Source: Bryum argenteum (Eukaryota > Streptophyta > Bryopsida > Bryales > Bryaceae). From it: a stretch of DNA of 64,000 bases. Under the pieces are notes generated by a model. That model saw only the letters and a list, made by a program, of their open reading frames with translations, was not told the DNA's origin and made no database searches. Location: contig CM073321.1 in the NCBI GenBank assembly GCA_037043015.1, forward strand, positions 25,247,510-25,311,509, read 5' to 3'. The position numbers and the translations under genes were made by a program. Shown here in pieces: positions 1 to 35,084 of the stretch (position 1 is its first letter; the number at the start of each line of letters is the position of its first letter).

Positions 1-1900
1 AGTCCACTTGGAACCAATGATATATCAATATATATAATTTTTCTTTTTTTTTATTATTAGACAAGACAAAGCAAGCGAAATTGTGGGTGTATCATTATGG
101 ACAGCACTCTGCCAACATACACTCATTTCACCAGAGTAATCCTTGCAATGGGAGAATTTGAACTTGACCGTTGAAATAGTCGATTTGTATCCCGCCTTTC
201 ATTTCCTGCTACTCCGCCTATTTGAGCAATTGCAAAATGTTTCCGTTCCTCTTTTTCTTATGTTTATTAGTCATTGTCATTTGTCATTCCATTTCCGTGC
301 TTGCTTCAATCACTATGTAAGTCTAGTTAGTGAATGCTTGACTTATATAGATTGAGCTAAGTGTTTGCCGCAATGTAGTACTACAGACTTCTCTACCTAC
401 AACTCGTTGCATTGTAGGGTTGACGGTGGGATTCCGTGCTCGGACGGTCTCTGATGTGTTGTGTATACCGTGAATTTTAGCTGCTTGCTTTCAGAATTGA
501 ACTGATGTTCAAACAATTTCTCAACAATAGTAGTACAAAATTCTCTTACATATAACAATGAGTTGCAGATATTTTCAAGTTACGAGCTACTGAAGCTACT
601 TTACTCAGACTATGGGATATACAATATAGAGATTTGTTGAGTGATTGTTGTTTCAACGTTTCAAATATTTTTGCGTATATTTTGGGAGACTGTTTTAGTA
701 GCATGGTTCACCCTCAAAAGAATTCAGCTCCAATTGAGTTGAATCTGTATATACATTGTGCATATGCTCATGTCCTATGTAGTTGTTTAAATTAACTCAA
801 GTTAACTTTGAATTTAATCTAACATAAACAAATTCGTTGTCACTAAGGATAATGTTCAAGACATGGATCTGAATAGTCAACTTTGCTCGAGTCGAATAAG
901 TGGACTACTACAGAGACATTAAAACCAAGAAACGATCCTATTATATTTAACTCGATTCAAGTTGAATTTATTGAGTACATTTAAATACAATCAAGATTCC
1001 AATGCGATTATGTCTTGAAGAGATGTTCCGCTGAACTCAAGTCGAGTTAAAAGACATTATCACAATACAAACTAAGAAGTGGCGTTATGACAACATAGAA
1101 AACGTAGTGGCTGGCCCAACGTTCGTAATTCAACTCAAGTCAAGCTGAATGTGGTAGTAGTCATTGAGATCTTTGTCTCGATTGTTGCAGTAATAAATCC
1201 GTCAATTATAACGAATTATGGATTGATTATTGAGATGATTTGAATGTTCTACTCGATTCTAATGTTATTGTATAAGGGTGTATTCATTGAATCGAGAGAA
1301 AATGCACATTTAGACTTTAGAGATTCTTAAATAATCAAAATTTTATTAAAGTGTTTGGAATGTTGTTGAAGAGTACTATGATTTGGACTTGCAAATTACT
1401 ACCACATTCAAATTGAGCGGTCAAGATCCCAAAGACACCAACGGATGGAAAGGAAACTACTCATGTATTAACTACTATAAATAAAATAAGGTAAATTGTA
1501 AATTAACCATTTACTAATACTAAAAGTAGTAACCCGACATTATATAAAGTACATTTATTTGGACTAAACTAAATAAAGCGGAGCATTCAGAACCCATAAT
1601 ACATAAGAAATTCAGAATGTCATTTAGTATGGACAAAAACCATTATAGTTCAATATAAAAAGGTACATACATTTCTACACTCATATGAAGTGTAGGCCTA
1701 CAAGTAGGAGGATATACCAAGTAGTAAAGTAGACAGAATATATACTATACGGATGAAGTTTTCTATTATGAGAGGATAAGTAGAGGCTACGACGTATTTA
1801 CTATTTATTTACGACATCAAAAATGAACATTTTCGATATCAAAGCCCCTTCTCTTTGGACTTTGAGTCATTAGGCTTGGAAGATTTCTCTAACAAACTAG
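1..1900. other. AT-rich intergenic DNA, no gene seen
   Basis: No reading frame here looks like protein. The stretch is AT-rich. Its only structure is a set of degenerate short palindromes between about 0.88 and 1.15 kb, listed separately. Not assigned to any element. Confidence 0.6.
877..1150. repeat. Cluster of degenerate TCGA-centred short palindromes
   Basis: Copies at 943-969, 1030-1051 and 1128-1150 match the near-palindrome TCAACTCGANTCGAGTTGA found in bulk at 22.8-29.9 kb. A weaker half-copy lies near 877-896. They are more diverged than the main cluster and lie in AT-rich DNA about 2 kb from the minus-strand FCP1/NIF-like locus. Confidence 0.65.
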
Positions 1901-3093: not shown

Positions 3094-3845
3094 TCATTTG
3101 GAGATTAAGTAGGGAATACTCGGCGTCTCGTAAGTTAATATTAAGTTCTTAGAAGACCGATTTATTCCATCAAAAATGTATCTTCCGAGGCTGCTATGTC
3201 CGTTAAGGGGCAGGACATCTATCCTATTCGCGTCTACACAAGCCCAAAGATTGCTCGGCTTGCAATTGGCATGGAAGGCAAGGAGCCAAGGTGCGAGTAA
3301 CTTCGACAAAATGTTGTCATTCCTGTTTGACCTTGGCCAAGGCTCAACGAAGATCGTATTGCCTGTATGGTTGCAAATACTCTTCTCAAGACTCTCGTCT
3401 ATTAGAAAAGTGTTATTGACGTCAAAGACAGCCTCTCCAAAATCAAGGCGAAAGACCGCACATGACAAGGTTCCCAAAAATATATTCTTCCTACTATTGG
3501 AGGGGGAAACCAGGAAGACGCCACGAGTAACCTTGTTTGTGCTACAAGATTCATGCCCAAGGATTTTGAAGGGCCTAGGAAGTCCGTAGAAGAGAAAGTC
3601 AACGATACCCTCTACTCTGAACCTCTTCATGGAGCTCCATATCACAACCCTTGCAACGTGCGTGGACATGAACTCCAAGAAGCCTCGAACCCTTTGTCAG
3701 CAGTACACTGCCTTGGAGGGAATTGAGGTTGGGATGTCTGTCCCGTAGAGCCGGTGGCAAGGATCAGTTGTGGCGGAATCCTTCTTCAATGTTGGCAGAT
3801 GCACACACTGACCATGATGATTCTGTTGATGTCAATGACGACATT
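3094..3845 (-). pseudogene. FCP1/NIF-like HAD-domain protein, copy 1 (decayed)
   Basis: The open frame 3678-3094 (194 aa) carries the landmarks of an FCP1/NIF-type HAD domain: VVIWSS near residue 11, a cysteine segment (GHESCS) where the family has a W-x-x-x-x-C motif, KNIFLGTL, then FLIDES in place of the usual L-L-D-D-S loop, and WPRSNRND about 20 residues later. Upstream on the same strand, in another frame at 3845-3825, NVVIDIN stands where the N-terminal DxD strand belongs, so the domain is broken by a frameshift or an intron. The catalytic motif reads D-x-N and IDDS reads IDES, both expected to weaken phosphatase chemistry. It is homologous to the plus-strand copy at 29 kb. Family placement is from remembered landmarks. 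Function is unknown. Confidence 0.65.
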
Positions 3846-4273
3846 CAGCCGCCTAATTGGTGTCGGCTGTTGGACGGCAATTTTCTCGTCATTGAGAATT
3901 TGAGAATTGGATTATATCAACTTTTTAACGAATTGTTCATCTTCTGCAAAAGATAATAGTCGTATAAGCCACATTCAAACAAATAGATGCAAACTATCAA
4001 ACGCAGTCGAACAAAAATCAATCGGATTCATGAAAGTCGTGACAAATATTTTTCATGAAGTGAAGGACTTACAACGTTTGTCATGTGCTCTCACTGATGT
4101 CTTGCCAACACGCTCGCCAACTAATCCACACACTCCTCATCCTTCTCAGTAATGTCATTTCTTTCGTGAGGTTTTGCGTCTGTAGTGGAGGAAGTGTTGT
4201 CCGCAAACTTGTCATTCACCACTGCCTGGTGTTGCTGGACGCTGGTCTTGTTGAGCATCCTCATGTTGACAAC

Positions 4274-6391
4274 ATTCCCGGATTGGGGGTGATTCACCAA
4301 GGCGTCGTACAGGGAGAGCTCAAGCCCAATATTGGTCGACGATTTGAGTAATGCGTTAGCGCCATCCTCATCATTACCCGTACTTGTACCTTCAGCTGGA
4401 CAAACTGGTGATGAAGGAGGAAGATCATTTCCAGGTCGGAGATTAATCTAGGTGTCAGCATCCAATGCACTTACTCAATCATTCAACTTAGTGGGGCACT
4501 CCTTGAGTATTGCTCCGGAACGAGCATTGATGTGCTCTTGTGATTCTTCGAGATCCGGTCTCTAAGAGGTGACTGCTGCAATGAGTCAGGCTGAGATGCA
4601 GCTGAAATAGGAACATCTCTGGGTCGGAGATGAATCAAACTAGCTTCCGCAGGGGAGGCTGCAAGGGCAACGTCGTGGAAGGCAGGAAGGGAAAACAAAG
4701 GAGGGTCCAATGCAACCCCGGATTGGAGATAATAATTTGCGAGTTCTTGGAGAGGGGGATCACACTTAGGGGAAACGAGGCTCAGCAGTCTGCACTGAGA
4801 CAAACTCCTCTACTGCGGTCTTAGCAGTCAACCTATCTTGCTCTAGATCCAGCTCAGTTGATGCCAAGACAAACTTTTGAAGGCCCTTCGGCAAAAAGAC
4901 TTTAGTTTCAGCGATATATTGAAACACCATGACATGCTCTTGGAGCAGGCGCTCTTTTTCCTCAAGTAAGCAATCCTTCTCCGGCTGCTTCTTCTTTTCA
5001 TCGACTATGAATTTCCTTACCTCTTGGTAGTGCTCATTGATCTTCTTCTCCGGCTCCGTTGCATTGAGAGCTTGCCTAGCCGCATTCTTCAAAGGACCTA
5101 TTCGTTTGAATACAAAGGGACTGCTGCCTTCTCCTGCTTCACGTCACGCAATGGTGTCTTATTAAGCTATGAGGCGGAAGTCGCAATAAGATTCAACACC
5201 TCATCGTTATCGTTGAAGTCGCTCCTAAGGTCAATAAATTTGTGATCCCCGGCAACTATTGTGAAGATAGGCTTCCCTTGTTTGTTGAATTTCCTGCTCT
5301 GGAGAATGGAGATCACATCTGCTGCCACTAATAACGTTGGCTTCGCAGCAGATGCCCCATCGATTGTAACACTAGCAACCTCGCCACATGGACTAAGCTC
5401 TTGCCGCCCCTTAAGTGGTTGCCGAACATTGGACGTGCACTCCGGTCTTTGTGAAGAACCAATCTCAACCACAGAGGATGAGACGCCCTTTGTCAGCTAC
5501 CCACAATTTATCTCCAACCTAGGGATAAATTGACCGACCATAGACCTTGTGGCAATGATTGGGGTCTCAAATTCATCATTAGGCTCTCGCTCCTCTTGAA
5601 AGGAGCTAAAGGACCTATGGGAGACAAAGGAAGCAAACTGGCCAAAGGCGACACAAGAGCTGAAAATGGAGCAGGGGCATCCTAATCTGCATGAACCGGC
5701 TGCAAGGACTTCTCCTCTCGATTCACCTCGGACTGAGATGCCAGATTAGAATTGAAAAACTCAGGATCTACATATTCCTCATCCATGTGATGATCCCCTT
5801 GACCACTATTGTCGTATCCCTCTCTCAATTCCTCAACAAACTCTTCATCCTCCTCCTCCTTCATCAATTTGTAAATGGGCCAATTTGGATGTCGTCTCTG
5901 TTGTAGGAGACTACGCGGAATTGTGTAAGTGTGCCACGCCAAACCCATATGTAGGATTGCTCTCCCCTGAATAGGTGGTTGTGAGTAGCGAAGCGCCCGC
6001 CTCCTCCTCCAAAGATTCAATCGCACTCCTATCATACAGGCAATTGTGGAGTACAAAATTGTGCTAGCTGACCTCCACCGCTTTCTTCAACGTGGCGACA
6101 TGCCGGTCTAGATGAGGGAAGTCAACCAAACTATAATATCAATGCCTGTAGATCTAAAAAGTAGAGTGCCATGCTTAGCAATGGAATTTAAAATAATTAT
6201 CGTCGGTCTGGAGATAATATGATTGAAGAAGATCAAGGCGTAAGTCCAAATAGATACATAATTCTGGATTAGGGGAAATTATCTCCGGTCCGGGGATAAA
6301 TAAGGAAGTTAACAAACAATTCTATTCTACCTAAAGCAACTCAAAACAAAAAATGATAGTTAAGAATTATCCCCGGTCCGGGTATAATACA
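4274..6391. repeat. Dispersed CCGG-centred near-palindromes
   Basis: About eight copies of the near-palindrome TATCYCCGGTCCGGRGATA lie at roughly 4274-4295, 4430-4451, 4612-4636, 4714-4738, 5505-5532, 6190-6220, 6277-6304 and 6364-6391. The copies at 6277 and 6364 are closest to consensus, and the 4.2-4.7 kb copies are degenerate. Length and layout are analogous to the TCGA family at 22.8-29.9 kb, but the sequence is unrelated. Confidence 0.65.
4483..6056 (-). pseudogene. Decayed minus-strand gene with acidic and coiled-coil blocks, upstream of FCP1/NIF copy 1
   Basis: Three protein-like blocks follow one another on the minus strand. 6056-5682 starts Arg-rich and becomes acidic (KEEEDEEFVEELREG). 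5472-5167 includes KPIFTIVAGDHKFIDLRSDF. 5092-4766 is charged and heptad-like, a probable coiled coil (CLLEEKERLLQEHV). A further weak frame, 4803-4483, has S/P-rich composition. They lie in different frames separated by gaps holding CCGG-centred palindromes. The simplest reading is exons with palindrome-bearing introns, as seen at 25-27 kb, but I could not assign splice sites confidently. The order acidic, coiled coil, S/P-rich, FCP1/NIF-like resembles that of the 27-30 kb locus. No enzymatic domain was recognised. Confidence 0.45.
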
Positions 6392-6495
6392 TGATGGGCA
6401 CTCACAACAAACATGACCATGAAATTTGACCCGACGAAGATTCCCAATGTTGAATCCCTTCTCTGGCAGTATTTGTGGACGATGTTGATGTAGAA

Positions 6496-6714
6496 CTATA
6501 TCTTGAGTTTTGTTTGTTTCGTCAACCCAGCCTCTGAATTGTAGTGCACAGCCGGAAGCTTGTATTCAGGTTTCATTGTGTTCTTGAAGCTGTCGACATG
6601 CGGATCTCCCTTCTTGAATAGGAATATCTGGCAAACGTCACTGGCAGCCTTTTCTGGAGCTGTCTTGTTGTACAACTTCTTCTTTAATGCCTTCTTGTAC
6701 TGCAAAATCTCCAT
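6496..6714 (-). CDS. Short unrecognised reading frame, possible exon
   Basis: A 72-codon frame starts MEILQYKKALKKKLYNKTA and has a lysine-rich, protein-like composition. It lies directly upstream, in minus orientation, of the decayed 6.1-4.5 kb gene and may be an upstream exon of it. No domain recognised. It ends about 100 bp from the piggyBac-like insertion. Confidence 0.3.
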   Translation of the reverse strand: MEILQYKKALKKKLYNKTAPEKAASDVCQIFLFKKGDPHVDSFKNTMKPEYKLPAVHYNSEAGLTKQTKLKI

Positions 6715-13758: not shown

Positions 13759-13857
13759 CCGTCCAAGCCAGCCTGGATCCAGGCTATGCGTGACCCGAAC
13801 TGGATTTAGTCGGAAACTCTTAAACCTCGGGCACAAATCCGGGCCGGATACCGTCCG

Positions 13858-17900: not shown

Positions 17901-18676
17901 TGGCCATGTCTCTTCGAAGAGAGGCATTCCAACCGGTAACTCCAATAGTCCCCCCTACCTTGGCTAATTCCGGAGTGCTCGAGATAATCTAAGTAGAGGA
18001 GGATGAGTTAGCCGACCTAGTGGCAATGGAGGACCCGACTACGGCAGTAGCCACGAACCCCGAGACGGCAGAGCCCGAACACGGACTCCTACACCCTACT
18101 GCGCGTGGAGACCAGAAGGAAGTGGAGCATCTCGAGGATGGAATCCCTCCCCAAGAGGCCAGTTTATACATAGATATAACCAGATATTAATACATTAGTT
18201 GATTTTTAAAAAAATAAATTAAAAAATCTGAAATAATTTATTCTGCTTCCATATCCAAAACATTTCCATGGACAAACCTCCTGTCCTTCGCTGTAGTGGT
18301 ATATTATCCCTATACATTACACTTCTGTATCCTTCTCAAAATATCTAAATTTTTAATTTATACTTGGAAGCCTAGAAAATTGTTTTATCGTCCTCTTTTA
18401 TTACATATAGTGCGATGTCGCAGTACATGAATAGGAATCAAATGCGACTCCATTATGATCTTCATATTTGACGTTCAACAGACTTATTTAAACATGTCTA
18501 GACATGTTGCAATCGTTTTATTTTTCAAACAATAAGTTCTAAAACTACCTCCCTTCAAAAAGATCTTCAATAAAATAATACAATAAATTGTAATAAAGAA
18601 GATGTAACATAATATTTATTGTTTTCTTTACGCTTTTAGCGTATAGGACTATTGGGTATAGGATATAGTCTACAAA

Positions 18677-18748
18677 GTTTAGGGTTTAGGGTTTAGAATT
18701 TAGAGTTAGGATTCATTGTTAAGGGTTTAGGGTTTAGGCATTAGGCTT
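18677..18748 (+). repeat. Interstitial plant-type telomeric repeat
   Basis: Two short runs of TTTAGGG units (about 18677-18696 and 18722-18739) are separated by degenerate units. TTTAGGG is the usual telomere repeat of most green plants. The tract is short and imperfect, so it is an internal relic, not a chromosome end. Confidence 0.75.
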
Positions 18749-19637
18749 TAGGCTTTTTAGTGTTTAGAGTACACTGAGGTTCTTGTATGTGAGATTTAAT
18801 GTGAATATCTCATATGTTCTACTACGTGTGGTGATGAAGTTTAGGTTGGTATAAGTGGTGCTAACACGGTTAGCTTTTTGCTTCACAAACCCGTTGTGGT
18901 TTTGCTATGTACTCTATGTTAATATTTTTGTGTTCGATTTGATATCTTCATGCTTTGAACCTTTAGGTTTCAAGCGCAAGCTTGACCTTACATTGCAAAA
19001 ATCTCTTATGGCAACAATGCCTTGCTTGCATATTTTTGCTTTATTGCACGCGCTGGACATCAAAGCATACTACATCATTCATATGAAAGTCATCTACATT
19101 TGAATTAGCTTCAAGAATGCTTGTTACTAAAGTGCTCAAAGAAAGGTGGATAGCATGCATCACTTCAAGTTTTGAAGGTTTATAGCTAGGTTACTTACAT
19201 ATTTATTGCCACCTTTTGTGCATCTTGTAGTTACCTCAGAGATCTGATGTTCATCGTGAAGGTTTATTGAAGGAACGAGGGTAATTCTCTCTAAATTTAC
19301 TCGAGTTCGTTTTGTCATGTGTTTTTTGTTTTTAAAAACATTACGTTATTATAATATATTAATAAAATAATATATTAGCTATATTATTAGTATTTTAATG
19401 TTATATTTTTAGTATAGAAGTTATAATAATTGTGCATGATCAACATTTACATATCAATTGAGTGTTAAATTTAAGTTATATTTCATCGTTATATAGGTTC
19501 AAAATAACTAAATTGACTCTTATTCTATTTCAAGTGACTTCTTGAAGATTATTAAAAAAAAAATGTGTTAGTGTTTATAAGGCGGTTTGTAGCCAATAAT
19601 CTACTTCTATAATATAATATTGTTGGACGATCCTTTG

Positions 19638-19745
19638 GTATGTATGATGTATGGCTATGGTATGAATGATGTATGGCCAGTTGGCCATGGTATGTGTAAT
19701 GTATGGCCATGGTATGTGTGATGCATGGCCATAGTATACATGATG
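19638..19745 (+). repeat. Minisatellite, about 22-bp unit, roughly five copies
   Basis: Imperfect units of the form GGTATGTGTGATGTATGGCCAT follow each other. One unit carries an extra CAGTTGGC. No coding or regulatory meaning is evident. Confidence 0.7.
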
Positions 19746-21299
19746 TTTCTCAAAGATATCTTCTATCTATAAACTCCCACTGTCTTATTTATATTGTCCA
19801 ATAGGTTCTCTCAAACCTTCCTACCCACTTATGTATCTACCCGATAAAATTATTAATATGTAGCCAATAATATTATTAATAAAATTTTATGTTGTAATAA
19901 TATAAATATAATTTAAAGATGATTTAATGTAATAGGAATAATATAGTAGTTATAGTAATAGTACAATAGAGGACAAATAAAATTTGCAAGAAAGTTATTC
20001 TAATTATAGAACAGAGGTCCGAGGGTTTAGAAAAAATAAGAACGAAGACCTCAATAGTTTATAGATAGTTAAGAAATAATTACTGAGATATGAGCATTAT
20101 CAATGTTGAATTAGTGCTTGAGTGTTGACAATGAAATAATGTTTGTTTATTATTGTTTGTATCTAACTTATATAAAAACCTACAGACAATTACTATGTAA
20201 TTATCCATTAACCCCTAAAGATCTAAGACGACCAAATCAAGCTTTTGCTATTTTAGGTAATGTAGATGAATAGGTTGTAAGTAATATTTTAGTTTAATTT
20301 TTTTGATGGGTGCTCCCTCTACTCCAAAGTTTATGAGATTAATTTTGCAAAGCCAATTTCCAATTTGGGAGTCTCGTCTTGTTTTTGAACTACGTATACT
20401 CAAGTAAAAAACAAATACACACATAATTATAATAAACATAGTATTGTTTGAAAAAATTGTAGACACATGATACTTTTTTAGCTTCTACGTCTAGACTTGG
20501 GTTATCGGTGATGGATCCGGCGATCCTTCCTATCAACCTACGTACCTAACTCGTATAAACATTTCTACCTATCTAGCTACCAATCTACCAACATACAAAC
20601 GTACTTACCCACTTACCTACTTTCTATGCTTTTTGGATTACATAAAAATAATAATGTTAAAGAAGTAAAAATAACAAACCAAAAAGAAAAAAAAGTAAAT
20701 AAAAAGCAACAAGAAAATAAACACGCACGGATAAAAATAATGAGCATGACAACATCTAAGAAGTTGGTAGAGAGGGATAATTTTTTTAGCTTCCTTCTCT
20801 AGACAACGATGACCTTATTGGTTTAGAAAACGGTATCTAATGGGTAGTGGGATATGAGCATTATTAAAGTTGAATTAGTGCTTGGGTGTTGACAATTAAA
20901 TAATGTTTGTTGTTTCTTGTTTGTATCTAATTTCAATATATACCTACACACAACAATTTAGTAATAAGTTTATCCTATTTATCCTAACATGTTTTATCTA
21001 ATACTACACATACTATTGTAAAGTGTTGTGGAGCCTAAATTCTTACCATACAACTAATATAGTGTTAGAATTGGCATTTACTAAATTAATCTTGTTTTCA
21101 AAAAAATAAACTAGAAAAATAGTTAGAAATTAGTGTATCCAATTGTAATTATGGAATTTGATGTAGTGTTATGATGCGCAATGAGAGTTTGTACACTAAT
21201 GCAACAAAATTTTCTTATAGTTGGAAAAGTAAATTATTTAAAAATGATCAGGCACACGCCCAAATACGAACGGACAGAGATAAGCAGACATTCATGAAA

Positions 21300-21690
21300 G
21301 GGGCAAAAAAAGACTGCCCGGGGCAAGATTCGGCGGGGGCAGCGTTGAAGGCGACCCAGGTAAGCAAGAGCAGTGTGAATGGCTGCCCGGTTAGGCAAGG
21401 GCAGTGTGAAAGGCGACCCGGGCAGGATTAGGAGCAGCCTGCCCGAATTGAGGCGATGAACGGAGAGTGGGGGGCCTAGGGCTTGACCTCCATTTGTTTC
21501 ATCGCCTTGCTCCCTTCTGCGACGCTGTTAGCTATGTTTCTCAACCCTGCTAGCTCTGCTCCTCGACGCATTTAGCTTTCAAAACTTTTTGTCTTCTTTG
21601 CGCGTGATCTTCGACCCTATTAGCTTCCAAAGCTGACTATTTCTTTTGCGACCACCCCTCGACGCTGTTAGCTTCCAAAGCTGTCTTTTG
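21300..21690 (+). repeat. Two adjacent degenerate tandem repeats
   Basis: From 21300 to 21440, units with GGCAGTGTGAA and CTGCCCGG alternate with GGCGACCC at a spacing of about 45-55 bp. From 21525 to 21690, units containing GACGCTGTTAGCTTCCAAAG recur three to four times. The short frame at 21171-21431 spans the first array and is probably not a gene. Confidence 0.5.
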
Positions 21691-22776
21691 CGCCTTAAAG
21701 TTGTCTGCTCCTTGATTTTCTCGGTGCATCAAGTAGGTCGCACGTTGTCGACGGCACTTTTGCGGCTTGGGCGGCGCTCATAGAAGTTTCTGAACTTCTA
21801 TAACCTCTATTGTAAGTTATTTGCCACTGTTTGTAGCTTTTGTTTTGAATTTTCATGTTCTAGTTGTTGCTATTTTTGTCCATCTTTGTCAATTTTTCAA
21901 ACTTTGGTACTTGAATTTGACTAGCTGTAGGGATCCTTCAAATTTGAGTGACTAATGAAGAGGAACTCTGAGTGTAGATGTCTGATTTAGAAAAAAAGAG
22001 GAAACTGGCTTGCTGGAGCTAGTTGATCAAATTTCAGAACCCTAAATTTGAAGAGCAGCTCTGGAATTTGAATGTTGAAACAAAAAGGGTGGATTTGTTT
22101 GAGCTATTTAGGGTTAATTTGGAGCAATTCAAAAATCCGTTCAATTGCGAATTTGTGAGAGTCGTCAATCAAGTTGTACTCACTGATTTTAGATATTTAG
22201 GATGCGTATTTTCACTTCCAGATCATCGATTTCTTAATCAGTTGCAAATGAATGTGACTACTATGTGATTTTTATTTTGCATACTTGAATCTGCATTACT
22301 TATGAGAATTTCCTTATGAATGATTCAATGTACATTTCTCTTGTTCTAAAACAGGGCATTGAAGATTGCATCGAATTTTGATTCCTGTAGATTCGAATGT
22401 ATTTTGAAAATGCATGAATGTAGTGTCTTTTTGAGGCTTCAGAATTGCGTTTGACCTTATTCTCACAAATTGCATGTAATTCCTTCCTAAGAAGCATTCT
22501 GAGCTGTGTAGTGATTTTCATGTTTCTCTATTAACTTTGTCGATAGTGAGTAAACAATATCACGAAACTGATCAAATTTGAATGCAATATTGTTTGCTTC
22601 AGGATTAGGACAAAGCTGAGGCTTGTTCAATTGTTTTTGGTATCCACAGACTAGAAGTAAACACTACTTTAATCTCGATCAATCTCACTATGTTGTAGGA
22701 GAATAGTTTGGCATTGAAATACTGTATTCGTGTATTATTCAAAATACAAGTTTTGTCTATACTTAGTGTACAAAAC

Positions 22777-23920
22777 AATTCAACTCGAGTCGACCGTAAT
22801 CGAGTTGTGTTGATGTTCCAAAGATTAAATAATGTTCAGCACTTCAACTCGACCGGAGTTGAATTTGAAACACATTTTACTACCTATACATACCAACGCC
22901 AATATAGAATACAAACAGATTCAACAGGGGCCGAGTTAAATTCTCCATTCAATTTTGTTTTTGTACGTCAAAGTAAGCCGAAACCACCCAATTAATCCCA
23001 ATGATGCCAGAACCTTATCCTCATTGGACGCTCGCGAGTTCACAAATCCGACGGAATCCAACTCGACCCATGTTGAATTTCCAACCCAGAATCCTCTTAA
23101 TGGTTAAAGTAGCATTATAACAAGCGATAAATAATTTATAGATTCTGGAATAAAATTAAATTATAATATAGATAAATTAGACTTAAACAATTCAACTTGA
23201 TTCAAGATGAATCGAGAATACACGAGATATGAACAGTACTGCAATGGTTCCGCTATGCCATTGAGGTACGAGAACGAGTCAGTCGAGTGAGCCCAAAAGA
23301 ACAACAGTGTAAATATTCAACTCGATTGGAGTTGAATTAGATGAACACCCTCATGAGGCAAAATAATACTAATTCAACACAACTCGAGTTGAACTGTCCT
23401 ACACAAAATCAATATATGTAGATAGGGTTGTCCAAATAGCACTGCCATGAGATCACAAACCCGAATCAAATCCATTCAAAACTGCTATTACTACACAAGA
23501 CAGATGAGAAGTCCATACAATCAACTCAATTCGAGTAAAAATGAGAAATTTATAAAATGGACAGTTGCTCTCGACAAAAATTTCAACTCGACTCAAGCTG
23601 AAAGTCAACATGTACTGTAGTAGGAGATCCAAGCACTCCCCCTAGGATACGTTCAACTGGAATCGAGTTGAATTAAACTTTCGTGACAATTACTCTCGAA
23701 ATGCGAAAGGTAATTCTGGACAGTGAATTGCTCTGGAAAAAATTTCAACTCGACTCGAGTTGAAAGTAAACATGTACTGTAGTAGGAGATAAAAATCATT
23801 CCCTAGGTTAGATTCAACTCGAATTGAGTTGAATTGATATTTCGTGACAATTACTCTCCAAATACGTACTGTCTCAATTACTGATAGATTTCTAGTTCAA
23901 CTTGACTCGAGTTGAATATT
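22777..23920. repeat. Dense TCGA-centred palindrome cluster upstream of the 24 kb gene
   Basis: Twelve copies of a near-palindrome with consensus TCAACTCGANTCGAGTTGA lie at 22777-22814 (two halves split by about 10 bp), 22842-22865, 23055-23080, 23189-23212, 23314-23339, 23371-23395, 23518-23541, 23580-23605, 23650-23674, 23741-23767, 23811-23837 and 23894-23920. Copies at 23741 and 23894 are nearly perfect. Spacing is irregular (25-210 bp), so this is not tandem. Two copies carry a shared 50-bp flank (23600s and 23760s, with CATGTACTGTAGTAGGAGAT), showing local duplication. Confidence 0.85.
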
Positions 23921-25382
23921 ATGGCAGTAACCATAAACCGAGATGGATACTAATTTGGCTTCTGTGTCTCATGAGCAGAAAACAATCCGAAGGAAAGGCT
24001 CTCAGCATTCTTCAAGCCCTATGTTCCTGAGGAGGTCAGCGTAGTCGCAGACCAAAAAATATTTGGCGACATGTGGGTGCACACAGAGCCTTCCGATGTC
24101 GAATGGTGGAGTATGCTCCTTACACCCCACACGGACAAGCTGGCCATCGTCACGAAGTATAGGGGAACAGAGTGCAACCTTCCTGTCAATATGGAGGAGA
24201 ACATCATTGATGTTGTCATCCACAACCCTTACTGGATCTGCGTGACGTGCATCGTGGACGATCCCGCCGAAGACACGACTGATAACCATGACTACCGGTA
24301 CACGTACATGATCGATACAATGAAGATCGGAAGTATAAGAAATACTCATGTACGATCCCAAAAATGTCGAGCAACACATTCGCGAGTTTTGATTCACAAT
24401 CGAGCTTAGTAACCAGCAGCCCCCAAATGTTCTCGTGCCTTGTCTTTGATCATTGATCACTGCCATGGTGAACTTCAAGGCAAAGCTGCAACGCAAGAAG
24501 ATGCAAATGCAGCCCCTTTGTCTGACGCAGGAAGTAAGCATGCACAGTGGGAGCCACGAGTCGATCCTATATGAGACTCCTGACAGGACAACAAGTGGAT
24601 CAAAGAGGCGCAAGGCTAATCCGTCCTAAACACAGCGGGGGCCAACACCGAAGAAGCTCAAAACAGTCACGACAAAGAAGTCAACCCTGGCCGAACCCAT
24701 GGAGATTAATCACGCGAGCCTAGCGTCGGCCTTGACTGACATCCCCATCAACAATCTAGAGAAAGTTGTCGATTACAAAGAGTCAATGCAATTCTTCAGA
24801 ATTTACTGGGCTCTGTGCCAGGACTCGTACATCTTTGGCTCAGATACCACTTTCGAGATTCCAATCGAGCATCTCTTTACTCCCCCCGCGGACCTGAACA
24901 TCCGGAACCTGGAGCAGGCAAATATCAAGCACACGATGCATTTCCTGATTGAGATGTCCGATTAAGAAAAGAAGAACACCCTCTGTGTCTTCTTCAAGAA
25001 TAAGCTCGTAAAACCACAATCTTGGGAGGAGATAGAGAACGGGGAGTTCTACATGGTCAATAGACAACACTGTGTCAAGGCCTCCAAGATGTTGCAAAAT
25101 AGGCAAGATGTAAATGTTAAGATAAGGGACTGTTTTAAGACCTGAGACTGCTTCGTAGTATAGAATGAAGATAAGTCCATCATTAGGAGAATTTCGACGT
25201 TCTACAAAAGGGTCAATCCCTTCATGAATACAAATCCAACGTGGGCGACAAACATCATCGGGGCGCGGGAGATGTGGACTAGCCTCGGTAGACCAGAGAA
25301 TCCAAAGGAGGTTATTGAGGTTGGCAGGCCCATTACACAGAAGACCTCGAAGGGCACGAAACCATCTAAGGATGCGTTCAAT

Positions 25383-25532
25383 GTATGTGCAACTCCATTC
25401 AACTCGATTCGATACAATACAAACTATGAACTATTTTTTTGAACACCTTCTCTAGACTCCATTCCAGCTGTAACCTATTTCAACTCGACTCGAGTTAAAT
25501 TTCTAACTCATTATCGTACTCGGTTGATACAG
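25383..25532 (+). other. Phase-0 GT-AG intron containing two TCGA palindromes
   Basis: The frame before (ends GCG TTC AAT) and after (starts GAG TTT ATG) match phase exactly. The donor is GTATGT and the acceptor TTGATACAG. Inside lie palindrome copies at 25397-25415 (half) and 25477-25502, the latter almost perfect. This places the repeat family in an intron. Confidence 0.75.
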
Positions 25533-26885
25533 GAGTTTATGGAAGCTGTAAAGTTTAGATTTGCTCTCATTAACGTTAAGATCGCCTAGAAAGTAGTGAC
25601 AGCAAGCAAGTCGGCTAGAGAAAAGCTCAATATCCAGAATGAACTTAAAATCATCTGTGCTCCTGATGAGGTCTAACTTGAGGTTATCTCAGCCGCATTC
25701 CAAGGGGAGCTCATCGACCCCGATACAGGAAGGAAGATGAAGGAGTTGGAGAAGTGGAAGACAGAGTATGGAAACATCTCTACGGAGTTCTTCAAATGGA
25801 TCGACAGAACAAGCTATCCCCAGCTGAAACGGTTAGCCGAGCATATGCTAAACAGACCGAACCCAAAACGGTCATACACATAGTCCAAAGTCACGTTGAA
25901 TCAGATGAAGGGTGTATTTATAGATTGCTACAGCGCCCGCGATTGGCTGGAGCACTGCAAGAGGAAGACCATTGTGAAACGCGTGATACTCAACATGCGC
26001 CCTCACTTAATGTTGTTCAGCATGAGTGGGGACTTCAGGAAGGAGAGCTGGAAGAAATTCAAGAGAGATTTCAAGATAACGCTAGCTATACGGAACGTTC
26101 TGATCACATATCCCGGGGAGACGTTCTTTGCGTAGTCCAATTCCCAGCAACAAGAACAAGTCCACAGAAGTACTCCTGCCGTATGCAGCAGAGTTCTTCA
26201 GAGTTTTCCTCGCCAACAAGGGGAAGTTTTAGGTTTCGAAAGGCGAGGCAAACTTCTGGGCCTACAGCCTGGAGGACGACGTGCTGGGGGACTGGCATAG
26301 TGACTCCTGGAACGAATCATCTTCCAAGAGAATCAAGGTCCGAATAATGGACTTCCGCAATTTCCCCGGAGCACAGGAGGTATCAGCTTCATCAAGCTCG
26401 CCATCAAGCTCGTTCTTTTACAACGTCCTCCAGGGCCTGAAGTCTATCACGGACCCGATGGTCACCAAAATTCCCGTTTGGGTTTGGATATGCGGAACTA
26501 GAGATGCTGAGGCGAAGATTAAGAATCACCTTGATACTTGCGAGTTTGGATAGAACTACAAGATTGAGTATGCAGAATATATTCCGGCTCCATATGAGCG
26601 ACTCGAGGATTATACCCTCTCGACCAAGAAGGCCAAAGATCATGTCCAGATCCTCTTCTTGTTTTGAAAATCGCAGAAGTTGGAAATTTTGAACCTCCCT
26701 AAGTTCTTCCACGCCCGCGACACTCCACAGTTCAACATCTGTGGGAGATACAACAAACTCGAGTACCGAATTTATAATATGGAATTGAGGATGGAGTTCT
26801 ACCTGAAGCTGCTTGATCTCTTCTGCTGGAAAGGGGATGTGACCCTCAGTGTTTCTGGAGGAGGGAAGCTCTACTGTGCGGCCTG

Positions 26886-27343
26886 GTGAGGACATCCTTT
26901 AAATTTCAACTCGATTCGAGTTGAATATTTTGAAATGAATCTCCTACTTCTTAAGGTCTTTGTATTTAACTCGAGTCAAGTTAAATGCGCACTTCAATGT
27001 GCAGACATCATTTCACTCTTGAACTCCATTCAACTAGACTCGAGTTGAATGGATTATACTAAATTTGCTACAAAACCATGTTTTCATATTTAACATAAAT
27101 CGAGTTGAACACGCACAATAAACTAGTTAATTCCCACTTTCTCATGCGGTCTTAAATTTAACTCGACTCGAGTTGAATGTAGTCAATACTGGCGCTTAGT
27201 AGTTCATATTTGGTATCCAACTTGAGTCGAGTTAAATACGCACACATAGTAGTATAGTACTACCCTGAAACGCCAGCTCCGGTCTAACTCAAATCGAGTT
27301 ACAAGTTATTGATAATTTCATCTCTTGCTGTGTCTACTCACAG
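26886..27343 (+). other. Probable intron packed with seven TCGA palindromes
   Basis: Donor GTGAGG at 26886 and acceptor CTACTCACAG ending at 27343 bound a segment with copies at 26902-26929, 26962-26985, 27028-27053, 27087-27110, 27155-27180, 27213-27238 and 27282-27302, about one every 60 bp. The flanking frames do not join in phase, which may reflect decay or a different true donor. Confidence 0.6.
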
Positions 27344-28320
27344 ATGTGTTTGCTGATGAATTACACAATCAGCTCTAGCGACGAGCACGACGACGTCGTC
27401 AAACTTTCGATGGAGGTCTTCAATTCGGATCGTCGAGATTTCAAAAGTGGGTACCCTATCGGTGAGGATTTCTGATCCAGAGAGAGACTGGAACCACCAC
27501 CACCCCCCATGAAGGCCGAGAAGGGAAAGGGAAAGAAGATTGTTAGGAGATCAGAGTTACCACTTGACATGAATGTCCCTAGACCCATAGCAATCGGGTC
27601 CAGTGACGACAATGACGACACTGTAGAAGAAGTTGAGGCCTATGGATCCCAACTACCGATTACGCCCCAAACTGGGCGAGGCTCATCTTTTCATCTTTCG
27701 CAGCCCCACAAGCACGGCTTCTCCGATAGCTTTGTTCCGGCTTCCACCCCTTCGCCTTAGAAGAAGCGAAGGGAGTCAGCCTCCGTTGACACTCTAATGA
27801 AGAAGCTCATTAGAATGCACAAGGAGGCGCACGCGCGACATAGGATCGAAATTGAAGCAATGCTTGCTCGAGAGCGCGAGGTATGCAGAATTGAGATTTT
27901 GGAGGATGATAAGTGATGGACCATAATGATGTCGCAAGCCTTTGAAAAAATACCCACAATGGTGGTCCAAGCGCTCACGAGCTTCCAAGCAAAGCCACTC
28001 CGCGCGCTCGAACGAAGCCATAGTGAACCTCCGTTCCTGACCCAAGGGGCCACTCACTCTTCCCACAGAGGTGCAGCTCAACAGGCATCACCTCGACGTT
28101 CCCTCTCAGGCAGTCCATTCGAGTCGGTTGCAGCTCCGGCACTCGCAGGCAGTATCGATCAAGTGGATCGTAGAGATGAAGGCCCAGAAAGTCGCTCCAT
28201 ACCTCGGACCCAGTCGATGTGGAAATGAAGGCGGTCGATGATGGAGAGCAGAAAGGAACACAGGATGAGACTCTTTTTACGAACGTTATTGAATCAATTT
28301 GAACTCCATGATCTAGTCTT

Positions 28321-28346
28321 TTGTTTAACTTGACTCGAGTTGAACT
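28321..28346. repeat. TCGA palindrome between the two 24-30 kb genes
   Basis: A single near-consensus copy, TTTAACTTGACTCGAGTTGA, sits in the gap between the methyltransferase-like gene (ends 28228) and the FCP1/NIF-like gene. Another, weaker copy at 29937-29960 lies just past the latter, so both genes are bracketed. Confidence 0.75.
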
Positions 28347-28553
28347 GCTCTTACGATTAATGGCAGATTGCATGTAGAAGCCTTCAAGAGTTGTTGTTAG
28401 TCTAGTATATATATTACCCTAAGACAATTTTGTTAGATTGGATTTAGTGTTCATCTTGTAAATACTTTTTGTATATGACGCTCATTTTTGAACGCAGAGT
28501 TTGGAATGCAATCATATTTTCTTACACATTTTCTCCCTCTGCTTTCTACGCAG

Positions 28554-29751
28554 GCTCTATTGATTGCGAAATGTTCCGAATGTATGTTTGTCTCATGAGG
28601 TCCCTCCTATAGAAGACACTAGTCCGATGAGTCCTTTTTATAGTGAGCCAAGTAACACAGCGCAAGATGATCACAATGAAGGTCACATTTTGGATTCAAT
28701 CTTGCTTGAGGTTCGCATTCCTTTTCCATCCTCGACCGCTGTAGGAGATTTAGAAACACCTGAAACTCAATCAAAGACGCCAGCAAGCTCTTCCCGTACC
28801 GTAATCTCATTTACATTCAATCCTTTCTTTACGAGTTCGGTGTGATCGCATTGTTTGGATATCGAAATTCTGAGTGTTACAGCGATGGTTAGTCTCAAAA
28901 TGAGGCACTGTAGTACTTAATTGTCTACACATTTGTCTGCCCCCCTTCTGAACAGGGGATGAGTCATTCGCACAGTCCGGTAGTTGCAGCCGTGGAAAAT
29001 GTCCTTCGTTCTATTCCTTCAAGGGTGCCATGCAAGTGGTTCAATGTCATCCTGGACTTGAACGGTATTCTGTGTGTCTGCAAGGAGAAGAGATTTATGC
29101 CAAAGGACCAAGTTTACAAGATGGTAAGGAATGCACATTCCTCTGTCCTACCCGCTCCGATTGGTCCCAAGGCAATTTTTCGTTCGGCCCATCTGCCTTG
29201 ATTTTCTTCGTGAGTTGAGTGAAGTTGCATATGTCTCCGTATGGAGTTCGATGGTTCATGCGACCACAAAGTCCATATGTGATTACTTGTTCCGGGGTGT
29301 GCCATCCCCGTGCCTTGTTTGGAGGCAGAAGTCATGTGAGGTTGTCAAGGTTCGTGGACCGCGGAATAAGTTGTCCAACTTCAAGTTGAAGGGGACTAAT
29401 AAGAATCTCTTCCTCAAACCACTGGATATGCTTTTTGGTGCTCTAAACTCAAAGTTTAATGAGCATGACACGATCATCATCGACGATAGCCGTGAGAAGC
29501 ACATCGTGAATGAACTTGAAAATGTCGTAGTGCCAGTCTCGTGGTCAGAGCATGATGTATTCGACAGATTCTTGGTGGACAAGCTCTTCCCTTGGATTCA
29601 ACAGCTACATCTGAGCCGCGGTCAGGGCTTGTTGTCTTTCCTTAGGGAAGACAACATTGGGCGTAGAATGCTCTGTGAAGAGCTCGATACTTCAGAATAC
29701 GAAGAGCTTAGGAGCGCCGTAGAGGCTTCTAGGAAGCTAGTGCTTGATTAG
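28554..29751 (+). pseudogene. FCP1/NIF-like HAD-domain protein, copy 2
   Basis: An S/T/P-rich exon (about 28554-28839, after acceptor CTACGCAG) joins in phase 0, through a 116-bp intron (28840-28955), to an exon starting GGG ATG AGT. That exon reads KWFNVILDLNGILCVCKEKR. The frame then shifts by one base near 29165 and continues to 29751 with FFVRPICLDFLRELSE, VSVWSSMVHATTKSICDYLF, VWRQKSC, NLFLKPLDMLF, DTIIIDDSREK and a DRFLVDKLFPWI tail. These are in order the landmarks of FCP1/NIF-type HAD domains: DxD strand, FxRP, V-x-W-S-S, W-x-x-x-x-C, K-x-L, I-D-D-S. The first motif is D-L-N, not D-L-D, as in a plant-expanded subgroup I recall. A second substitution removes the usual Thr. The 587-bp 3' frame has no stops. 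The frameshift could be an assembly error. TCGA palindromes flank the gene at 28321 and 29937. Confidence 0.7.
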
Positions 29752-29960
29752 GCTAGTTAAGCATGATTGGTCTCACCAGACATGATTCAAATTTGCCATG
29801 TATATTGTGTAGATTATAATAAATGATTTCAATATTAATGTCTCTTCTCGGACTGATTTCATTTCAGAGCGTGCTTCTGTCCAGTCTTTTATTTTATTTT
29901 ATCGTAGTATTTGATGGTGCAGGTTCTCTCGGCATTGATTTAATTCGAGTCGAGCTAATT

Positions 29961-31310
29961 TGGCTCTATGATATTGCATATCATCCTTGTTGATGATTCC
30001 TCTAAAATGAATTCGTATCCAGGTGCCCAATTCTGTCTCGGTTTCGGACAATGATTTTGATTTCCGTTGCGCTGCTTCTGCTGATTCGATTTTGGACTAC
30101 GGACAATACACAATTTCGTAGAGTGGAATGGGCCATATAATGTACTCAAGAGCTACTGCACAATCAACTATGGACTACTCAACAATGGCAATCGATAATG
30201 GTGTTGTGGATATTCCTCCTTATGGCGGTAAACGACCACACTCTGCATGTTCTCCTTCCCCACTAAAGAACCGTACCATGAAAGACAAATAAAGTCAAGG
30301 TGGCGCTTCGCAAAGAAAGCTTTATGATGATTCTCAGTTAGTTGAGGATGCACTTCCGGTACAGGTATGTAATAAGTGAAGCAGTTCATCTATGAATTTT
30401 TTTGTGATTGTTAACTTCAATCGTAATTTGATTTACTTACATTTATCTATCTCTTTTCATCGACTTTGGCGACTGTTGCAGCAGTCGTGCCCATACCGGT
30501 CATCTTTGAGTCCCCGGCCCTTTGTGTATCACCTCATAAGGCAGCGACGCTGAAAATATCTCGTGGTGCGACAACACATTCTCTCTCTACGCCTTCTATA
30601 TTGAAGTCTTTGGAGTCTGCAACAGAACTTGGAGACTGCATGACAAAATTAATGAGGCCACCTAAACCTTCTGTTGCCCATGCTGTTGATACCTCACGTT
30701 TGCCCTTCCGTACTATGCGTCTCCCATTACACGAGGGTCACCGCCAGACTCAATCATACGATGGATTTCAACCCAGAGTTACTTGTCCACCAGTTCGTGA
30801 TGCATGAGAGCAACGGATTTTGAAGCTTCGAAGACGAGAGAAATCAAGTTCTCGTTCGTCACCATACACAGGCTACAGTTGTGGCCCAGAAGTGTGGAAG
30901 GCACTAGCAGAAATTCGAAGCCGTTCGCACTTGTGATACGGCAACAATCTTGATATGATTTGGAGCACATAGGCGTAGTCCTTCATGGATAGCCTACGTT
31001 CAACACAATACTGTATGGTTCTATTGGTATAGAAATATCGTATAAACCATTGTACATTCAGATCATTCATATGTAACTAGAGCTCACATTTATATCTGGA
31101 TGAGCATATTTCCTATAACGGGGTCAATTGGTGTAAACAATGTCTATAAATATACATACATTCATGTATATCCCATTCTGGTATACAATTATTCATCCAT
31201 CTATATCTACTTAATACCATTTTCAACGGCCTATTTGGTTTTTTATCATTTCTTCTAGGACTCAACATTACTCTCATTATTGCGGGATACTCTCAAAATA
31301 ATGAATATGG
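29961..31310. other. Mostly non-coding, one possible exon
   Basis: A plus-strand frame at 30466-30807 (113 aa, S/T/P-rich, FESPALCVSPHKAATLK) follows a pyrimidine-rich acceptor-like stretch and has protein-like composition without a recognisable domain. It could be an exon of a further gene in the 24-30 kb locus. The remainder is AT-rich and shows nothing. Confidence 0.3.
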
Positions 31311-32359
31311 TGTTATAGCGGCGCACGACTGACAGGGTTAGATCTTTAGAAGATCTGGGATTCGCGGGGTTTGTCCACTTCCAGGTATGCCCAGGGAAGA
31401 TCTGCTACTTAGTCGAGGGAGTTCAACTCCCTTGGGGTCTTTTTGTGCTTTCATCTTCCCTAATTCAGTTGCAAGTACGTTTCTCCCCTTATTTTCCTTG
31501 TAAGCTTGTCTCCTTGTCTCCCGTGTTGGATGCTGGGTCGGGGTAGGGTGGATAGCGCAGAGGGCCCTTCCTGTCCGGGCAAGTGAAAAAGTGGTTCCGT
31601 GGTCGAACAGAGAGGAGAGAGGAAAAGAAGAGAAGCAGAGTAAAAGGAGTGTCGCCGGTGAACGGCACCTCGCGCCGGAAAGGAAGTCCTCTTTGTCCCA
31701 GGAGCTTTTCACGATAACAGCAACCAGGAAGGAATTTTTGTCGCCTAACCAACTCCGGGGGCCGACGCGGTTGAGTTCCCCCGGTCTGCTAATACTTCGC
31801 GTAGAGAGGCTGATTGGTAGGCGCTAGGGGTAAACCCCGAACTAGGTGCACCACCTCCATGTCCGGTAACCTGATACCTACTGTCGTAGATAGTGAGTCA
31901 TTATAAGTCGGGTAATAGGAGAACCGGACACCCTTTAGTGACATGTGCACAGGTCTGACATCCGGGGCGTAGAGGATAGTGTAAAAGAAGTATATAGACA
32001 GGAGAGAAGGAAGAGATAAAGAACTCGGTGATATTTGCGGTCACGATAATCAACGGAAAAGGTGGTCTAATCCCCCCACCTTACCAAGTCCGGGAAAACC
32101 CCTCTGATGTATATACAAAGGTTAAACTAGACCAAACCCCCCCTGTCTAGGTATCAATACCCGGACAAGAGTCGGAGTACATAGTAGGACCGGAGATACC
32201 AGAATAGGGTAAGTCCGGGTTCGCCAACTGGTGGGTATTGTTGTCTTTGCACTTTACAGAAACTCCGTGGAATGAGTATCCGGGCTGTTGTCCTAGAATA
32301 CACCTTTTTACCGTAAGAAAAGGATATCCACGTAAGAACAGGGAAAATGCGTTACGACA
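31311..32359 (+). mobile_element. Solo LTR of the A/B retroelement family
   Basis: This about 1.05-kb segment aligns end to end with 55738-56824 downstream of the element B ORF. Shared phrases include a CGGCGC start, GGGTTAGATTTA, CTACTTAGNCGAGGGA, CTAATTCAGNTACAAGTA, GGTGTCCGGGGT-like words, CACTTTACAG, TCCGTGGAA and the end GTTACGACA. It starts TG and ends CA. No purine tract or coding region precedes it, consistent with a solo LTR. No matching 5-bp flanks were found (TATGG against ATCAT), so one boundary may be off or eroded. Confidence 0.65.
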
Positions 32360-33761: not shown

Positions 33762-35084
33762 TGTCACATCCCTTTCAAAAGGATGTCTGAACACCGTGGT
33801 GAGCCAAGAGGACCCCGGGGGTGTCGCCTCGGGCTTGGCAAGAGACAAGGTGAAGTGACCAAGGGGAGTCTCGAGTAAACAGCACGCAACAGCGTCGTGC
33901 TCGGGACAAACTTGGTAGTGTGCCTTACATGGTTGGAAACCTTGTTCAAGCACGCACCCATGGGTCCAAAGAACGCGCGATTTGGAGTTGTGAGTCATGA
34001 AATATGGCTCTCCAAAGTTGGAGCGCGTTCCGGGACACTCCGGGACTCGGGAGTGTTGCCTTTCGGGACTCAATGTGTCGACCTTTGTCGAGGGCAACAT
34101 GTTGCATATAGCTGGAAAGTTAATGACAAGAGCTTTTTAGAATGCTAAGGCTCATGATGAGCAAAGCAGTAGTTTAGGAGATATGGCTCCTCAAAGTGGT
34201 CGGGACTTCGGGACTCGCGAATGTTGCCTCCCGGGACACCAAATGATCAGAGGGGCATATCTCCCTTGGGACGGATTCAATTGAGGCAAGTAGGTAGTTT
34301 ATCGATATCTACTCAAAGAGTAGATGTCGAAAATGGGCTTGCACGTCCCGTTTGGATACCTGAACTAGGAGCTAGCCCGAGGAGAAGTTACGGCCCGTTT
34401 TTGAGGCTAAGGCAAAAACGGGTGGTCTTCCAAAAAGAAAGTGTGTCACGGAAGGCCCCTCATCACAAGAGGGGGGGGCCTACCGAAGACTCCAGAGAGT
34501 ACTATGAGGAGGGGTGGTCTCCCTCCTCACTTGCACATGGTGCCATGAAGAGCCGGGGTGGCTCTAAGGGGTGAGGCTTGGGATGGGGCCTCACTCGCGC
34601 ACCTTGGACACTATGGGATGCTTGTGGTGTGCATCCCGAAACATGGGGTTGGAAAAGTGTCCCGCTCCAAACTAGTCCCCGTGATAAGTAGTGTCAGTTT
34701 CCGGTAGTGTCCCGAATGGAGAGTAAAGACATGAATGGAAGGGGACTAGTGGAGAGTTGGACAACATGCAAGGGCGGTTAGCTTCGGGGGTGACTAGTGC
34801 CACCCCTGGAAGCTTGGACATGTGTGGAAGGCTGCCCCGTACCACCAAGTGGCATGCCCATGTGTTTTGTGGGAGTTCCGGTTTCCGAGTTCCGGGTAAT
34901 GAGTTGGATGAGTCAAGGTGGGTTGGACACCTTGACTAGAAATGGTGCTAACATTGTGTGTGCTTGGCATGTGCAGTGTTAGCTAAGTTGTGGCCGGTTG
35001 CTACCAACAAAGTGAGCCGTCATTCCGCTACTAAGTAAGGCTTACTTGAAGAAAAAGAGTTGGGAGTAATAAAAGTTGCGACAT
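33762..35084 (+). mobile_element. Solo LTR, TSD TCTAG
   Basis: Starts TGTCACATCC, ends GCGACA, 1323 bp, flanked by the perfect duplication TCTAG (33757-33761 and 35085-35089). It is close to the LTR at 13858-15346 over nearly all its length and shares the stem-loop (34303-34329), a G run near 34471 and the GGTGGTCTTCC phrase. No internal region is attached. All frames inside it are incidental. Confidence 0.93.

Follow-up and report, generated by a model that had tools for sequence, protein, structure and literature searches.

Palindrome arrays in a moss DNA transposon family that encodes a predicted ParB-like protein

A 64,000-nucleotide stretch of the genome of the moss Bryum argenteum (contig CM073321.1 of assembly GCA_037043015.1, positions 25,247,510 to 25,311,509; hereafter the window) carries an array of 21-bp palindromes upstream and in the introns of a gene that we call gene 2. 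A sequence-only reading had taken this region for one gene locus. We found that it belongs to a multi-copy, ~17-kb cut-and-paste DNA transposon family (family A), of which it is one copy, and that families A and B, the latter a distant sister, carry two different palindromes at matching places. With modest confidence, we favor the explanation that the palindromes are bound by an element-encoded protein of the ParB superfamily that would keep the element transcribable, acting as a palindrome-guided anti-silencer or self-activator.

The palindromes and the family-A transposon

Alignment of 12 stretches, including the window, by blastn delineated an element with 26-bp terminal inverted repeats (TIRs) and 4-bp target duplications. 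Four copies with both ends are 16.8–17.3 kb long, and a fifth is 15.2 kb; the target duplications read TACA, TTAA, ATAT, and TCTA in four family-A copies and TAAC/TAAT in the fifth. The TIR has 96 + 97 matches in the genome and 0 in the control. The left gene of the element lies on the minus strand and matches DUF7869 (PF25273), which we take to be a transposase domain, with an E value of 2.2e-26 in one frame and below the cut-off in two others; tblastn with DUF7869 pieces found no such gene in the window. Pfam scans of open reading frame (ORF) pieces and relatives detected DUF7869 and NIF and no MULE domain. Gene 2 occupies the right side of the element on the plus strand and comprises at least three exons plus an NIF/FCP1-like exon. 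The features of the window copy are listed below, followed by five palindromes near the start of the window.

18188..31314, plus strand: family-A copy, with gene 2 on the plus strand (similarity starts at 18188; blastn against 11 other stretches)
22780..23915, no strand: 12 palindromes upstream of gene 2, each with at most 4 mismatches; 19-mers start at 22780, 22844, 23058, 23192, 23317, 23374, 23521, 23583, 23653, 23745, 23814, and 23897
23975..25382, plus strand: gene 2 exon A (start approximate; frameshifts and stops in the window copy)
24714..25382, plus strand: region matching the predicted ParB/Srx-fold domain, modelled on residues 262-486 of the Ceratodon relative P0001 (borders approximate)
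25383..25532, plus strand: intron 1, GT..AG, with palindromes at 25399 and 25480
25533..26885, plus strand: gene 2 exon B
26886..27343, plus strand: intron 2, GT..AG, with palindromes at 26906, 26966, 27030, 27090, 27158, and 27217 (at most 4 mismatches), plus one weaker site at 27284 (5 mismatches)
27344..28204, plus strand: gene 2 exon C (end approximate)
28325-28343: palindrome past exon C
28875..29748, plus strand: NIF/FCP1-like domain exon
29940: palindrome with 4 mismatches, past the NIF/FCP1-like exon
31289..31314, minus strand: right TIR, AACACCATATTCATTATTTTGAGAGT, perfect (C1:25278798-25278823)
724..1148, no strand: five degraded type-A palindromes (724, 877, 947, 1032, 1130)

We counted non-overlapping copies of the pattern TCAACTCGANTCGAGTTGA between window positions 22001 and 30500, with 300 dinucleotide shuffles as the control. 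Two copies were perfect, 17 had at most 3 mismatches, 22 at most 4, and 25 at most 5, compared with shuffle means of 0, 0, 0.06, and 0.53, in agreement with the roughly 23 copies first noticed at 22.8–29.9 kb. The weak copies reported at the window start were also recovered, as five copies with 2–4 mismatches within the first 1500 bases, near 0.7–1.15 kb. Across the other 53.1 kb of the window (without 1-1500 and 22001-31400), there were 0 copies at up to 4 mismatches and 1 at up to 5. The unit, originally described as 20 bp with one central TCGA, is in fact 21 bp or slightly more and has a free central base between two TCGA. Its consensus (type A), built from sites with at most 5 mismatches in 11 element stretches (233 distinct 31-base stretches), is TTCAACTCGANTCGAGTTGAA, with weaker A..T outside. 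The spacing is less irregular than first described: of 146 spacings under 400 bp pooled over seven family-A copies, 103 fall within 50–89 bp and 21 within 120–149 bp, and two stretches of the upstream palindrome region of the window copy are local duplications 161–162 bp apart. An Rfam scan of the window gave 0 matches at gathering, and an RNA family was rejected on this ground; a search for exact 21-mer copies among viral contigs found none.

The test proposed for the dyad symmetry, whether paired changes in the two arms exceed chance, was passed weakly. Permutation P values for arm-to-arm covariation were 0.19 in the window copy, 0.008 to 0.32 across six other copies, 0.004 for 138 pooled distinct 21-mers, which are not independent, and 0.19 in the sister family. 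Because paired arm changes exceed chance so weakly, most of the symmetry is conservation of a symmetric consensus. The four CpG positions match this consensus in 79–80% of the 138 distinct sites and most other positions in 83–96%, while positions 3 and 19, which are not CpG, match in only 68 and 62%. The lower retention at CpG positions would fit past methylation without proving it.

The whole assembly of the window (258.8 Mb, 25 contigs) was then scanned, with the reversed pattern as the control. The type-A 19-mer at up to 3 mismatches has 3251 sites (163 for the control), and the 21-mer at up to 2 mismatches has 2393 (0 for the control). The perfect sites, among those listed, cluster with similar layout; of 12 palindrome clusters within the first 10.7 Mb of contig C1, which carries the window, the 10 that were examined all belong to family A, as judged by alignment or a gene match. 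The copies are thus genome-wide but clustered, as the sequence-only reading had asked of them, and this clustering excludes a uniform genome background. Contig C1 accounts for 44.1 of the 258.8 Mb (17% of bases) and, by hand count, for 68 of the 95 perfect termini among the matches listed. C1 is perhaps a sex chromosome (U or V).

Site placement was read in one family-A copy, E8.16, where the 31 sites with at most 4 mismatches extend from 3.7 to 13.9 kb along its 16.8 kb: 9 upstream of the left gene, 13 upstream of gene 2, 2 in intron 1, 6 in intron 2, and 1 past exon C. None of them is centred inside an assigned coding block, and allowing up to 6 mismatches adds one weak site there; the described absence of sites from coding-like blocks is not absolute in family B (see below). 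Both introns had been placed exactly, to the base. In family A, introns 1 and 2 have their first site 15 and 19 bp past the splice donor, respectively. Across 10 copies of intron 2, the sites are conserved like the exon edges and the spacers less so; between the window and E8.16, conservation is 0.89 for sites, 0.65 for spacers, and 0.87 for exon. The intron-2 sites occupy the same places in different family-A copies, and the spacers between them are not alike.

A sister family with a second palindrome

A relic of family B, much diverged from gene 2, was found by tblastn at 2.4–6.7 kb of the window, and a blind palindrome search of the relic region yielded TTATCCCCGGTCCGGGTATAA and TTATCTCCGGTCCGGGGATAA.

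6376..6663, minus strand: last part of exon B, 26% identical to the corresponding exon of gene 2
3262..3959, minus strand: NIF/FCP1-like exon, 31% identity over 167 aa
2415..2564, minus strand: downstream ORF piece x6, 44% identity over 50 aa
6367..6387, no strand: palindrome of the second type, TTATCCCCGGTCCGGGTATAA, located 18 bp past the presumed donor of intron 2 in the relic (gene on the minus strand)
6279..6299, no strand: second palindrome type, TTATCTCCGGTCCGGGGATAA; weaker ones with 4–5 mismatches at 6197, 5508, and 2740

The relic region holds 4 palindromes overall versus 7 expected from shuffles (0.85 per region listed); because this is no excess, only the genome-wide count makes the case for the second type. 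That palindrome (type B), TTATCCCCGGNCCGGGGATAA, follows the same 10+1+10 design as type A and has 1901 sites genome-wide, compared with 1 for the control. The two types share their length, the free centre, and the skeleton TT...C.CG.N.CG.G...AA, which covers 5 of 10 arm positions and alone could be chance. The family-B stretch C1:958501-978500, whose element ends lie outside it, contains 45 type-B sites at up to 5 mismatches and 0 type-A sites. Two of these adjoin the end of exon A; the upstream side of gene 2 has sets of 3 and 11; 24, at ~44-bp spacing, lie directly upstream of the DUF7869 gene; and the other 5 fall within a long open frame.

The proteins of the two families have diverged as well: the family-B ParB-like exon is 31–37% identical to family-A relatives and exon B 24–31%, and the DUF7869 genes are 50% identical in the longest piece and 36% and 65% in two others. 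Among the loci listed that could be compared, the site type matches the protein family in 6 of 6 cases for A and 8 of 8 for B. That so distant a sister uses a different palindrome at matching positions suggests that a system of site-specific control is co-evolving with its protein. Family B also contains tandem arrays of 43- and 61-bp units. The five family-B palindromes within the long open frame (730 aa; L038:1942-4131) are in frame and would translate as YPRxGDN-like repeats.

A third gene 2 family, up to 49% identical to the Ceratodon protein P0007, was also seen (29 candidates scored, 76 matches), with one member, C8:15339451-15345027, free of stops in its listed exons. The perfect sites listed include neither palindrome in the neighbourhood of this family (0 of 3 loci for type A and 0 of 2 for type B). 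By hand counts among the matches listed, which are of matches rather than elements, C1 holds 81 of 105 gene 2 matches for family A, 67 of 99 for family B, and 51 of 76 for the third family.

Gene 2 and its predicted product

Gene 2 is under purifying selection, with dN/dS of 0.27–0.37 in all nine comparisons within the genome. Its named relatives are from mosses only, 21 of 22 bearing the names Ceratodon or Physcomitrium, and 16 of the 22 have the NIF domain in the same chain. The names of ten Ceratodon relatives bear UG or VG (one stands for 139 sequences), which we read as U and V chromosomes. In an AlphaFold model of residues 262-486 of P0001, a ParB/Srx fold is predicted, with matches including PDB 7bm8, 7bnk, and 7ol9, and gene 2 is accordingly predicted to include a ParB/Noc-like domain; at the sequence level, ParB matches reach only E 0.06–0.095. 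Apart from NIF, Pfam scans of ORF pieces and relatives gave no convincing match to gene 2. The end of exon B looked like a DNA methyltransferase by eye, and this candidate was rejected: a PDB profile search gave one unrelated match (E 1.5), and Pfam gave 0 families for 6 members.

We also looked for the palindrome in relatives from other sources, using 19 exon-A ORFs from proteins of public assemblies and metagenomes, read by eye past the splice donor. Of 13 readable tails, five (P0025, P0028, P0029, P0032, and P0034, which are 40–64% identical to P0001) encode peptides fully compatible with the intron-1 palindrome, and P0006 has two one-mismatch type-A copies past exon B. Shuffled 19-bp palindromes at up to 2 mismatches gave a mean of 1.4 hits and a maximum of 14 in 200 trials. 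Type-A-like stretches in P0035, P0041, P0013, and P0019 (2 mismatches) are near this chance level and were not counted; a type-B candidate with 3 mismatches, in the P0042 tail, was no better than shuffled palindromes (mean 6.8 hits, largest 45) and was dropped.

Several observations weigh against a palindrome-binding, ParB-like protein. The structural model is that of a Ceratodon relative, its mean pLDDT is 69 (core 80–94), its TM score normalised to the query is 0.34, and Foldseek returned no match under E 0.001 for it; a model of whole P0001 (22 sequences) reached a pLDDT of 41 and was set aside. The fold matches include sulfiredoxin, SbnI, and free serine kinase, none of which, to our knowledge, binds DNA. 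ParB proteins bind and hydrolyze CTP through the motifs GERR and ENxxR; placed by eye, NGQHSVAAS and YYNRVNHF stand at these positions. The part after the ParB-like fold is too poorly modelled to reveal a helix-turn-helix. In the FCP1-like domain (window 28875-29748), HAD motif I, usually DxD, reads DLNG; because of this, its catalysis is doubtful, and the domain is perhaps an inactive phosphatase joined to a ParB-like protein. On the side of the sites, the covariation between arms is weak, 8 of the 13 usable exon-A tails lack the palindrome (six further tails were too short), and perfect sites of both types are missing from four family-B loci, which fall under 72% identity and all contain stops. 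The restriction to non-coding DNA is not absolute, given the five family-B sites within a long open frame.

Possible functions of the palindromes

In the mechanism that we favor, the palindromes would be binding sites of the transposon-encoded gene 2 protein, with its putative ParB-superfamily and FCP1-like domains. The protein would load on arrays that precede the transposase-like gene and its own gene, as well as on those within the introns of the latter, and would keep the chromatin of the element open and transcribed, a sequence-specific anti-silencing or self-activation; protein and palindrome would change together when families split. The binding, a ParB/Noc-like sliding or spreading, and the anti-silencing outcome are all inferred, and we favor them because of one functional parallel, one structural parallel, and one precedent.

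The nearest functional parallel, with an unrelated protein, would be the VANDAL/VANC system of Arabidopsis, in which an element encodes an anti-silencing protein, motifs are arrayed in introns and upstream, and motifs turn over between sister families (PMC5735166, PMC10398659). The moss element resembles it in having an element-encoded gene beside a transposase-like gene, intronic and upstream motif arrays, tandem repeats, and sister families with different motifs, and anti-silencing in the moss is proposed by this analogy. It differs in having a DUF7869 transposase-like gene and a candidate protein with a ParB-like domain and no Mutator-type transposase, and in its motif, a 21-bp palindrome that recurs in relatives with as little as about 40% protein identity. 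Structurally, the nearest parallel appears to be bacterial ParB/parS and Noc, whose sites are palindromic and lie in arrays; the likeness comprises the predicted fold of one domain (PDB 7bm8, 7bnk, 7ol9) and the arrayed palindromes, whereas the moss case concerns a eukaryotic transposon with altered motifs, an extra FCP1-like domain, and no demonstrated helix-turn-helix or CTP binding. VirB, a ParB-superfamily regulator of a bacterial plasmid, relieves silencing by countering H-NS (PMC10653881). Compared by role and not by sequence, it is a precedent for a ParB relative as an anti-silencer, but it is a bacterial plasmid protein acting against H-NS. Among transposons, Lanisha elements are reportedly linked to Ceratodon. 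They are described as cut-and-paste and EnSpm-like, with C2C and H3-4H motifs, in a group that makes 2–5 bp duplications (Maumus, McDaniel, Carey 2020, as cited in PMC12730594). The element described here is likewise a cut-and-paste DNA transposon with duplications of 4 bp; by description only, it differs from Lanisha in its DUF7869 match.

Other explanations have to be set against this one. The arrays could instead be internal sites for transposition or regulation at which the DUF7869 protein or a partner binds, like the TnpA sites of En/Spm; the 24-copy array directly upstream of the family-B DUF7869 gene and the joint divergence of DUF7869 genes and palindrome types fit such a role, which nevertheless appears unlikely, as the sites are internal (3.7–13.9 of 16.8 kb in E8.16) and many are upstream of gene 2 or in its introns. 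Host transcription factor sites, serving as promoter and intronic enhancers, would account for the upstream and intronic placement and, with a dimeric factor, for the dyad symmetry; this is distinctly unlikely, for two palindromes at matching places, each tied to its own family, would need two host factors. A role in RNA, as pre-mRNA hairpins acting on splicing or feeding small RNAs, draws on the closeness of the first site to the donors in family A and, 18 bp inside, to the presumed intron-2 donor of family B. We give this very little credence, however, given that 22 of the 31 E8.16 sites precede the two genes, that a loop of one base is unfavourable for a hairpin, that the arms covary weakly, and that the window lacks an Rfam match.

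The sequence-only reading had left open whether the copies are a protein-binding site array or a self-spreading mini-palindrome. Their high copy number and dyad symmetry could suggest a mini-palindrome or miniature inverted-repeat transposable element colonising the transposon, but this is barely credible when intron-2 sites stand at the same places in different copies and the sister family has another sequence with the same layout. The binding-site array is the better-supported half of that choice, since the 21-bp dyads are conserved in non-coding DNA, to an exon-like degree within fast-drifting introns. A partition-like role, in which the ParB-like protein would tether the DNA of the element or segregate it like bacterial ParB/parS, would suit the predicted fold and the palindrome arrays; it is highly improbable for a chromosomal element with cut-and-paste hallmarks, and no ParA-like ATPase occurs in the 20 ORF pieces scanned.

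Within the anti-silencing or self-activation explanation, a bolder version that we entertain only tentatively is a ParB/parS-type system in a eukaryotic nucleus, in which a clamp would load on the 21-bp arrays of its own promoter and introns, spread, and defeat silencing, with at least two, probably at least three, co-diversifying specificities. If so, sequence-specific transposon self-activation would have evolved at least twice in plants, with one origin from a superfamily best known for bacterial chromosome segregation. One genome would then offer proteins paired with their cognate 21-bp palindromes, in which specificity, CTP dependence, and escape from silencing are directly testable, and the crowding on a possible sex chromosome would bear on the question why transposons accumulate on the sex chromosomes of mosses. 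In the open-licence literature, judged by title or the start of the abstract among the matches listed, neither palindromes of this kind nor a ParB-like protein are reported for transposons of mosses, which is no proof of novelty.

Two minor observations concern the surroundings of the element. Near position 1276 of the window is a stretch that resembles the TIR by eye. Another repeat family is represented at 13854-15346 and 33762-35083, which are 97% and 81–87% similar to repeats flanking an element fragment at C1:2.69 Mb.

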